Assembly (NCBI GenBank): GCA_900315755.1
Contig: ONAI01000030.1
Location: 1 to 36,294 of the forward strand
Origin: an uncultured Ruminococcus sp.
GTDB lineage: Bacteria > Bacillota > Clostridia > Oscillospirales > Ruminococcaceae
Length of the DNA: 36,294 nt
Reading direction: 5' to 3'
Part shown: positions 33,147 through 34,888 of the stretch, in pieces
Numbering within the stretch: position 1 is the first letter of the stretch
Layout of the letters: every line of letters starts with the position of its first letter
The notes under the pieces: model-generated
What the model was told of the DNA's origin: nothing
Databases searched by the model: none
Seen by the model: only the letters and a program-made list of their open reading frames with translations
Made by a program: the position numbers and the translations under genes

Positions 33147-33174
33147 AAAAAAACGGCAGGCATAACGCCTGCCG
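33147..33174 (-). terminator. Terminator after the rubrerythrin gene
   Basis: CGGCAGGC and GCCTGCCG (33154-33161 / 33167-33174) form a perfect 8-bp GC-rich stem with a 5-base loop, followed on the minus strand by seven Ts (33147-33153). Confidence 0.93.
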
Positions 33175-33192
33175 GTAGTATGTATACAAATA

Positions 33193-33744
33193 TCAGCCGA
33201 AGTATCTCTTAAGAAGTCCTTCAAATGCTTTGCCGTGACGAGCTTCGTCTCTTGCCATTTCATGAACTGTATCGTGAATAGCGTCAAGGTTGAGCTCCTT
33301 AGCTCTCTTGGCGAGCTTGAGTTTTCCCTCGGTCGCACCGTGCTCTGCTGCAACTCTCTTCTCAAGGTTTTCCTTAGTCGAAGATGACAGCACCTCTCCG
33401 AGAAGCTCTGCAAATTTTGCAGCGTGTTCAGCTTCTTCGTATGCTGCTTTTTCCCAGTATGCACCGATCTCAGGATAGCCTTCTCTGTATGCAACTCTTG
33501 CCATTGCGAGATACATACCAACTTCTGAACATTCACCATTGAAGTTTGAGCGAAGACCTTCTACGATCTCCTGATCTGTTACTGCCTTTGCAACACCAAG
33601 TTCATGCTCGCAGGCAAATACGAGTTTCTCGCCTGCTTCCTTCTCTATAAACTTTGAACCCGGTACTCCGCACTGTGGACATTTCTCAGGCGGTGCATCT
33701 CCTTCATGCACATAGCCGCATACTGGACATACATATTTTTTCAT
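33193..33744 (-). CDS. Reverse rubrerythrin
   Basis: A 183-residue oxygen/peroxide-detoxifying protein with the rubredoxin domain first (C6, C9, C22, C25: [21 protein letters not shown]) and the diiron ferritin-like four-helix domain after ([40 protein letters not shown]). This order is the reverse of classical rubrerythrin and is known from Clostridium acetobutylicum, where it reduces H2O2 and O2 with electrons from NAD(P)H through rubredoxin reductase. It lies 56 bases downstream of the glycyl-radical-tail gene with no convincing promoter between, so the two are probably cotranscribed. GGAGGT precedes the ATG; a strong terminator ends the unit. Confidence 0.94.
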
Positions 33745-33800: not shown

Positions 33801-34064
33801 TTATACTGTGTGTTTTACTCTGTCGCGTTCTTCTGCGCGTTTTCCGTTATTGAATCTGTCGAGTGTACCTACGAGATAACCGGTAATTCTTCTTATACGG
33901 TCGAAAGGTACATCTGCAAAATCGTATTCAAGGTCAACATAATCACCGTCGATCTTGACTGTCATTGCAGCGATCTCACGGTCGCTGTATTTTTTCTTGC
34001 CATAGTCGATATAAGCATTGATCTCATCCTGAGAGATCTGCTCACCGATAACGTTTACTTTCAT
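33801..34064 (-). CDS. Stand-alone NrdD glycyl-radical-tail protein
   Basis: An 87-residue protein. Residues 1-50 are a small acidic domain (VNVIGEQISQDEINAYIDYGKKKY, VKIDGDYVDLEYDF). Residues 54-86 match the end of class III ribonucleotide reductase: RRITGYLVGTLDRFN, then NGKRAEERDRVKH; compare E. coli NrdD RVCGYLGSPDARPFN, AGKQEEVKRRVKH. G62 sits where the glycyl radical forms. The NrdD catalytic barrel and the Cys4 zinc site before the tail are absent, so it cannot be a reductase alone. AGGAGGT precedes ATG 34064. It heads a unit with reverse rubrerythrin, divergent from a Crp/Fnr regulator. Automatic annotation may call it anaerobic ribonucleoside-triphosphate reductase. A spare radical subunit, like GrcA, is my inference. 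Confidence 0.8.
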   Translation of the reverse strand: MKVNVIGEQISQDEINAYIDYGKKKYSDREIAAMTVKIDGDYVDLEYDFADVPFDRIRRITGYLVGTLDRFNNGKRAEERDRVKHTV

Positions 34065-34143
34065 AAAAATACCTCCTGTTTAATGCAGCTCTGCGTTGTA
34101 CGGTCGTCAATCAGCCTGCGGACAGAGCATTTTTAATAAAAAC

Positions 34144-34179
34144 TTGACTTTTGACGTAATTTATTATATCATATATAGT
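34144..34179 (+). promoter_or_regulatory. Overlapping promoters of the Crp/Fnr-type gene
   Basis: Two matches with 17-base spacers: TTGACT (34144-34149) with TATCAT (34167-34172), and TTGACG (34151-34156) with TATAGT (34174-34179). Starts would be near 34179 or 34186, just before the palindrome at 34190, which would then act as an autorepression site. Confidence 0.55.
34163..34168 (-). promoter_or_regulatory. -10 box of the NrdD-tail/rubrerythrin unit
   Basis: TATAAT on the minus strand, with no recognisable -35 box at 17 bases (CAGATT). The predicted start is near 34156, giving a leader of about 90 bases. A good -10 without a -35 is typical of activator-dependent promoters. Confidence 0.6.
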
Positions 34180-34189
34180 AGAAAAAATC

Positions 34190-34205
34190 TGTTGCAATTG
34201 CAACA
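34190..34205. promoter_or_regulatory. Perfect 16-bp palindrome, candidate Crp/Fnr-type operator
   Basis: TGTTGCAATTGCAACA, a perfect inverted repeat between the divergent genes. Its centre (34197.5) is about 41.5 bases upstream of the predicted minus-strand start, the class II activator position for Crp/Fnr proteins. It also lies between the plus-strand promoters and the AAGGAGGA site of the regulator gene. Confidence 0.65.
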
Positions 34206-34219
34206 AGGAGGAACTTTTT

Positions 34220-34888
34220 ATGCTCCCGGAAGATAATATACTTTTCAATGGCGTGGATAAAGATGACTGCCATCGCATGATAAGCTGCTTCAACGCAGAC
34301 ATCCGCAGATATAAATCAGGCAGCCGTATTGCTGAGTTCTCTATGGGCAGTGACCGCATCGGTATTCTGCTCAGTGGTAAGGCAGTAATAGTTAAATACG
34401 ATATAAACGGCGTTCGCACGATCATGGAAACTCTTGATGAGCAGAGTGTCTTTGGCGCTTATTTTACATATTCTGCTTCTTTGAGGAGTATGATTGAAAT
34501 AGTTAGCGAAACTGACTGCGAAGTAATGTTCCTGAGACGTTCTGAAATAACCAAACGCTGTGAAAATGCTTGTCAGTGCCACACTAAAGTTGTTGAAAAT
34601 CTGCTGGAACTGATGTCTGAAAAAGCTGTAAGGCTGAGTGAAAGGATCGAGGTGCTCAGTCAGAGAACTATTGAGGATAAACTCATCAGCTGTCTGCAAA
34701 TAATCGAGGATAATACTCCTGACGGGAAATCTCCGCAGATACCTTTCTCAACTACTGCGCTTTCTGACTATCTTTGTGTAAACAGAAGTGCTTTGCAGCG
34801 AGTTATAACAAGGCTCAAAAATGACGGCGTTCTTTATATATCCAAACGCAGATTCAGGCTTAACCGTTTCCGCGATCACGATATTTGA
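34220..34888 (+). CDS. Crp/Fnr-family transcriptional regulator
   Basis: A 222-residue regulator: cyclic-nucleotide-binding-like beta-roll (about 15-115; GSDRIGILLSGKAVIVKYD), dimer helix (about 120-150), and a C-terminal winged HTH (about 175-220) with recognition helix VNRSALQRVITRLK. The cAMP-binding PRSA motif is absent. Cysteines sit at 17, 23, 100, 114, 118, 120, 158 and 186; the N-terminal pair and the C114/C118/C120 cluster at the start of the dimer helix recall redox or Fe-S sensors such as FNR and YeiL, though the spacing differs. ATG 34220 follows AAGGAGGA. It is divergent from the NrdD-tail/rubrerythrin unit, with a shared palindrome between, so it likely controls both. The signal is unknown. 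Confidence 0.9.
   Translation: MLPEDNILFNGVDKDDCHRMISCFNADIRRYKSGSRIAEFSMGSDRIGILLSGKAVIVKYDINGVRTIMETLDEQSVFGAYFTYSASLRSMIEIVSETDCEVMFLRRSEITKRCENACQCHTKVVENLLELMSEKAVRLSERIEVLSQRTIEDKLISCLQIIEDNTPDGKSPQIPFSTTALSDYLCVNRSALQRVITRLKNDGVLYISKRRFRLNRFRDHDI

Follow-up and report, generated by a model that had tools for sequence, protein, structure and literature searches.

A stand-alone NrdD-type glycyl-radical domain in Ruminococcus, a likely trans-acting part of class III ribonucleotide reductase

Small proteins that supply a glycyl-radical domain (GRD) in trans are known for pyruvate formate-lyase (PFL). GrcA/YfiD (TIGR04365) and Y06I of phage T4 are free-standing GRDs with an extra N-terminal part, and in the accessible portions of PMC8683613 these two, both serving PFL, are the only validated spare parts, such parts for other glycyl radical enzymes being speculative. 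NCBIfam 20.0 contains the families GrcA, GrcA2 and GrcA3 for PFL, and a search of it gave no equivalent curated family for the protein described here. Ribonucleotide reductases (RNRs) whose chain comes in two pieces, as in our case, have also been reported, namely NrdJa/NrdJb, the Aeh1 class I alpha subunit and the intron- or intein-split nrdD of phages (PMC9669993, PMC3267527, PMC3653736), and in the available parts of these sources a glycyl-radical tail encoded as its own gene is not described. We found no description of a stand-alone NrdD radical domain in the open PMC literature, among the matches listed and in the portions of it that are accessible, and none in the accessible parts of PMC11226230, PMC11528403, PMC9531940, PMC12662201, PMC12288474, PMC3019208, PMC8683613 and PMC3688515. 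A GRD in trans is thus a known kind of arrangement; the enzyme served, the architecture of the protein (a GRD with an extra N-terminal half, hereafter LONG) and its obligate use look new.

The window, a stretch of 36,294 nucleotides from an uncultured Ruminococcus sp. (contig ONAI01000030.1), carries the following features at this locus:

33801–34064, minus strand: gene ('copy A') for the 87-residue stand-alone NrdD-type GRD protein, LONG form (profile and PDB matches, predicted fold)
Within the protein: residues 1–50, beta-alpha-beta-beta domain; residues 54–85, radical loop and C-terminus, with radical glycine Gly62
34071–34077, minus strand: AGGAGGT ribosome-binding site of the GRD gene (from sequence)
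34163–34171, minus strand: extended -10 TGATATAAT of the GRD promoter (TGATATAAT or TGATACAAT in loci that pair a crp-type gene with a GRD, including L053)
34190–34205, no strand assigned: palindromic candidate operator TGTTGCAATTGCAACA, of the form TGTTGC-N4-GCAACA, kept in crp–GRD loci
34220–34888, plus strand: divergent Crp/Fnr-family regulator gene (cNMP_binding above cut-off, Crp-type HTH below cut-off; a conserved neighbour)
33193–33744, minus strand: rubrerythrin with a rubredoxin-like domain at its N-terminus, the unit's second gene (PF21349, E 5e-14; PF02915, E 6e-13)
33154–33174, minus strand: terminator-like hairpin and T run after the rubrerythrin gene (consensus scan)

The first-pass annotation had described an 87-residue ORF with a strong ribosome-binding site whose end nearly matches the C-terminus of NrdD, lacking the catalytic barrel and the zinc cysteines, and each of these points held. 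The ORF starts with ATG, and its residues 54–85 align with columns 533–562 of the 562 of PF13597 (NRDD; 31.3 bits, cut-off 26.2, E 1.2e-7); the top PDB match is the NrdD of Prevotella copri (8p23, residues 707–738, E 8.5e-7). Gly62 sits in ITGYL and RVKH forms residues 82–85, so that the C-terminal feature of NrdD, a radical-loop glycine plus an RVKH end, is present in the form RIRRITGYLVGT..RFN..K..E..DRVKH common to NrdD C-terminal GRDs. The window protein resembles the P. copri domain in this loop and differs from it in being a separate polypeptide: the ten-stranded barrel with its active-site cysteines is absent, PF13597 being matched in columns 533–562 only, and no zinc-site cysteines precede the loop, the protein having no Cys at all. 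In an AlphaFold2 model of the isolated chain (mean pLDDT 68.7), residues 2–49 form a beta-alpha-beta-beta fold (pLDDT 80–85) and the radical loop is disordered (pLDDT < 50). A Foldseek search for the origin of the N-terminal domain yielded HPF/YfiA ribosome factors as only weakly similar structures (best E 0.0096; TM < 0.45 among the best 50), and no second Pfam family matched LONG consistently, the best being Pinin_SDK_memA, which matched 12 of the 42 members with a lowest E of 0.0035. With the GrcA models of NCBIfam 20.0, the window protein had no match up to E 10, and L057, L278 and L355 had none up to E 1. The differences from GrcA/YfiD lie in a domain of the NrdD rather than the PFL type, in the beta-alpha-beta-beta N-terminus and in a partner that, by gene content, is NrdD/NrdG.

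A family-model search of the source genome (G000; R. flavefaciens-type, 2.45 Mb in 123 contigs, 92% complete) gave four matches: copy A in the window; copy B on a contig of 3.6 kb; copy C, whose radical Gly is replaced by Asp; and the tail of NrdD. This NrdD is intact and followed by nrdG, and its tail is 84% identical to the window GRD over 38 residues; NrdA/NrdJ (PF02867) was not found in this 92%-complete genome. Most of the closest relatives of this GRD protein are in records named R. flavefaciens or Ruminococcus sp. (L038 is 99% identical), and nine equal-length R. flavefaciens-type genes have a mean dN of 0.12 (0.06 in the tail) and a median dS of 1.6, with dS defined in 11 of 36 pairs. 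Because the genome holds three such ORFs together with the closely similar NrdD tail, and because dN lies far below dS, the ORF is far from a chance reading frame; judged by its sequence, it is a real gene for a stand-alone NrdD glycyl-radical domain. The PFL of this genome is split too, with a 701-residue body, a 69-residue ORF with no NCBIfam match and a 79-residue GrcA3 at L359 (G000:C68, 2080–4660). This GrcA3 (NF038360; 167 bits, above the cut-off of 158) is, like the window protein, a GRD in trans beside a tail-less body, and differs in belonging to the PFL family.

We then looked at the NrdDs of the family. Our sample comprised 148 genomes, at least 102 with a family-model match at E <= 0.001 and at least 141 with an NrdD-body relative at E <= 1e-20. 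We inspected the C-terminal ends of 100 NrdD loci, drawn from 98 genomes, with about 1.5 kb on each side; distant NrdDs and fragmentary ones (G016, G028, G067, G070, G121, G133) were not typed. Fifty of the 100 were fused, that is, normal NrdDs, and 50 lacked the radical tail, some stopping just before the radical loop (for example ...GFERIKRIR in G030), which means that at half of these loci a gene under the name nrdD encodes the enzyme incompletely. In 39 of the 50 tail-less loci, as in Subdoligranulum variabile (OY725842.1), nrdD adjoins a SHORT GRD, an ORF of ~45–60 residues, with its own start as read by us, between the tail-less nrdD and nrdG. Naturally split class III RNRs of this kind, with a short tail ORF after a tail-less nrdD, were also seen at L036, L109–L118, L121, L122 and L355.

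The remaining 11 tail-less NrdDs (G015, G030, G035, G049, G065, G071, G085, G090, G094, G103 and G143) had no GRD in the fetched stretch. Among the matches listed, every one of these 11 genomes carries a Gly-type LONG gene on another contig, and many of the genomes are drafts in which 'another contig' is no proof of distance. LONG was found in none of the 39 SHORT genomes versus all 11 (Fisher p 2.7e-11), and its Gly type in 14 of the 50 fused genomes versus all 11 (p 1.1e-5), again among the matches listed. A Pfam search gave a matching result: along PF13597 the 11 NrdDs cover columns 1 to 532–540, and the LONG proteins columns 532/533–562. The tail-less NrdD is the sole NrdD in ten of the 11 genomes, with LONG as the sole tail found there among the matches listed; only G065 has a second, intact NrdD. 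This gene content strongly supports the view that the GRD supplies in trans the radical loop that its NrdD partner lacks.

Two other accounts of the 11 missing tails were considered and rejected. A frameshift or assembly error does not fit ends that differ among genomes, and tblastn of the fetched stretches gave no convincing tail remnant (best E 0.006, from the FERIKRI end of G030 itself, versus E 1e-19 in a control locus). Cover for a broken NrdD by another RNR was rejected on finding PF02867 in none of the 11 genomes, eight of which are at least 96% complete and three (G049, G085, G103) 75–88%. The same argument fails for SHORT, because NrdA/NrdJ was present in 22 (three by weak matches only) and absent in 15 of the 37 SHORT genomes tested out of 39.

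LONG is not confined to this family but extends to others in the order and the phylum. The first-pass annotation had asked whether its occurrence follows nrdD/nrdG. Among the matches listed, an NrdD body accompanied LONG in each of the 29 genomes of the family sample that carry it and, by PF13597, in all 45 tested beyond that sample, although this co-occurrence is weak evidence alone because most genomes of the family have an NrdD body anyway. Judged by where the profile match ends, the 45 comprise 26 with fused NrdDs only, 17 with tail-less ones only and two with both, among the matches listed, and in the 17 tail-less-only genomes LONG is the only tail found among those matches. In 17 further genomes with LONG whose NrdDs are all tail-less, NrdA/NrdJ was absent in 13 and present in four. 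In family f60, the gene immediately after LONG is nrdG at all 10 loci found, with the nrdD body upstream of LONG in four and elsewhere in the genome in six; the order is tail-less nrdD–LONG–nrdG at L057 and intact nrdD–LONG–nrdG at L059. Together with the 11 complementing genomes, these operons strongly support the earlier proposal that class III RNR can have its radical tail as a free-standing protein. In other genera the neighbourhoods of LONG genes vary, and many of the genes stand alone without a stress context, so guilt by association is confined to the crp/rubrerythrin and nrdD/nrdG contexts.

The first of these contexts is that of the window. The rubrerythrin gene lies 56 nt downstream of the GRD gene and is co-directional with it; the Crp/Fnr-type gene, which had been placed in the same unit, is divergent and would therefore have a control region, not a transcript, in common with the GRD gene. 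The order crp (divergent)–GRD–rubrerythrin recurs in 21 loci (L038–L056, L058, L061), and in three further genomes with fused NrdD (G048, G261, G386) LONG has a divergent crp-type gene beside it but no rubrerythrin, which with the window gives 25 crp–GRD loci, some of them close relatives. All 25 contain TGTTGC-N4-GCAACA, with one outer mismatch each in L058 and L254. The centre of the palindrome lies 29 nt before the first base of the -10 in 24 loci and 28 nt in L254; in the window the 29-nt distance puts it at about -41 from the expected start. Crp/Fnr proteins usually activate from near -41, and the divergent Crp-type regulator likely acts on this candidate operator. A similar placement is listed for E. 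coli yfiD, with an FNR site at -40.5, in the accessible part of PMC3688515.

The source genome has two exact palindrome sites versus one for a reversed control pattern. Its only other site (L320, G000:C18:7429) lies upstream of suf-like genes, one SufC-like and one SufB/D-like, at nearly the same -10 spacing; the first is an ABC ATPase (sufC model E 3.7e-37, an ECF-transporter ATPase model slightly better, both below cut-off) and the second matches sufD at E 3.6e-7, below cut-off. Across 60 genomes of the genus, we counted at least 84 sites in at least 41 genomes versus at least 27 with the control pattern reversed; chance may thus account for roughly a third of the genus sites. When one site was read in each of 30 genomes, 17 were at a GRD gene, four at the suf-like operon and nine at neither; the 29-nt spacing was found at all four suf-like and 16 of the 17 GRD sites, and the remaining nine had no TA(T/C)AAT within 45 nt on either side. 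The exact operator is absent from the genus members G019 and G135. Beyond the genus, the arrangement of a divergent crp gene and a conserved site near -41 is absent at most LONG loci: crp occurs at four of 26 fused-type versus none of 27 tail-less-type LONG loci. In 12 of the 14 fused-NrdD genomes of the family sample with Gly-type LONG, no crp-type gene lies in the fetched stretch; the oxygen setting therefore does not apply throughout. G094, a tail-less genome, has a rubrerythrin gene within 2 kb of LONG on the other strand. Where it occurs, the context of rubrerythrin, Crp-type regulator and suf-like genes suggests a spare part for oxygen damage, as GrcA/YfiD is for PFL.

We consider it likely, from sequence comparison, that the GRD protein provides class III RNR with a glycyl-radical domain in trans and that in this organism it is most likely a spare part, one that probably replaces tails cut off by oxygen. 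The proposal builds on features established in the sequences themselves (homology, radical loop, gene-content complementation, nrdD/nrdG operon links, operator architecture). Oxygen would cut activated NrdD at its radical glycine, a cleavage at the glycyl radical that the accessible part of PMC3019208 reports, and the cut enzyme would then equal the state of the tail-less NrdDs of relatives. The beta-alpha-beta-beta domain of the GRD protein may help it to bind NrdD, the Gly62 loop would fill the empty place in the barrel, and NrdG would install the radical on Gly62, restoring activity without a new 770-residue enzyme. Acting at the palindrome near -41, the Crp-type regulator would switch the GRD gene along with rubrerythrin and the suf-like operon, in response to a signal and with a sign that we can only presume. 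We infer the repair role in R. flavefaciens from the intact NrdD taken with the rubrerythrin/Crp/suf-like context; with NrdD intact, the need for the GRD in this organism is presumptive. Counted against the proposal, besides the intact NrdD, are the disordered loop of the isolated model, the Asp-bearing lineage described below, the 12 fused-NrdD genomes that show no crp-type gene, the missing exact operator of G019 and G135, the share of genus sites that may be chance, the second NrdD of G065, and the NrdA/NrdJ found in four of the 17 further genomes.

A rather unlikely alternative is that the protein is a constitutive radical subunit, which changes places with the tail that intact NrdD has built in and helps to activate or tune the enzyme at all times, much as the obligate subunit would in tail-less relatives. 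Such a role would suit the many LONG genes that stand alone without stress context, the operon of L059 with its intact nrdD, and the ten of 11 genomes in which, among the matches listed, LONG is the only tail found for the only NrdD, a tail-less one. However, in intact NrdD the site is already taken by the built-in tail, as is established for solved NrdDs, and the R. flavefaciens gene is tied to rubrerythrin, to a Crp-type regulator and to an operator common with suf-like genes.

The residues kept in LONG bear on a further alternative. In 42 Gly-type sequences, E14, Y18, F54, I57–R59, T61–L64, G66, T67, N72, K75, E78, R82 and H85 are invariant, as is G62 by the choice of Gly-type rows, and V83 and K84 are at least 90% conserved, so the RVKH end singled out by the first-pass annotation is indeed kept. 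That annotation had held that homologues without the glycine would speak against its idea, and such homologues exist: the radical residue in 104 distinct LONG sequences, with weak matches in families f36, f65, f81, f94, f103, f121 and f138 left out, is Gly in 59, Asp in 45 and no other in any. The Asp form (L003/L006 at G000:C111; L068–L106) is itself conserved, mostly reading RSADYLVN. In all 39 of the loci L068–L106, rsmA/ksgA lies downstream in the fetched stretch, the other six being L003, L009, L010, L033, L035 and L239; because 39 of the 45 have rsmA there, the Asp forms look like a separate paralogue and not like decay of the window gene. Since this paralogue is conserved though unable to carry a glycyl radical, some members may act without one, and the protein could serve as a regulator or decoy, sitting on NrdG or in the empty barrel and restraining the formation of the radical. 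Such a role may suit the Asp form, whereas for the Gly form we find it improbable: its sequences keep the rest of the loop and R82/H85 invariant, and no tail but this one was found with the tail-less NrdDs, whose missing loop a pure inhibitor could not make good.

Service to another glycyl radical enzyme, for example PFL, is very improbable: the PFL of this genome is indeed split from its radical domain, but it already has a GrcA3-type protein in its cluster, the window loop is NrdD-like and not PFL-like, and linked relatives lie beside nrdD/nrdG. That the gene, by sequence a fragment of NrdD, is a remnant of a duplicated nrdD without a role is hardly credible given purifying selection, a second conserved domain, a conserved promoter and conserved neighbours, and spread over many families; a loss of the reading frame in most close relatives was not seen.

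How a trans-acting spare part could become an essential subunit is suggested by the NrdDs themselves. On a quick unrooted tree of 141 NrdDs, which leaves out L315 and tail-less NrdDs without a fetched locus (such as six of f60), the state tail-less with LONG required 11 changes (at least seven forced by well-supported branches), SHORT 15 (seven forced) and fused 25 (10 forced). Genus g16 is mixed, with fused G132 and G359 and tail-less G015, G279, G302, G323, G351 and G416, and LONG is present in all eight members among the matches listed. From these changes and this mixture we infer the order spare first, tail lost later. A fuller scheme, to which we give slightly better than even credence, is that class III RNR was repeatedly split in two in Clostridia-type anaerobes. 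The radical-tail protein would have been a spare part first, kept as such in R. flavefaciens under an oxygen-damage switch; several NrdD lineages would have lost the tail because the spare could replace it, turning the spare into an essential subunit; phages and conjugative elements would carry copies; and one lineage would have exchanged Gly for Asp and taken on a new role.

The GRD protein is a concrete and widespread spare-part candidate for an essential enzyme, and the natural 'pre-cut' NrdDs make a test of that role simple. It could explain how DNA synthesis recovers after oxygen in strict anaerobes that have only class III RNR.

Several variants of the domain were seen in passing. The nrdD of G057 (L195) has two tandem radical tails fused at its C-terminus. 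The matches G677:C1:1918583-1918762 and G459:C4:41986-42159 cover model positions 2–61 and 2–60 only, apparently N-terminal halves without a radical tail. GRDs of the copy B type (L005 in G000:C12, L064, L221) lie among genes that a conjugative element also has; the neighbours of L221 encode a Toprim/DUF3991 protein and a VirD4-like T4SS coupling protein. On a viral contig (L108, IMG/VR), LONG lies at 722–979 between the terminase large subunit and portal genes, a phage-borne copy that recalls T4 Y06I for PFL.
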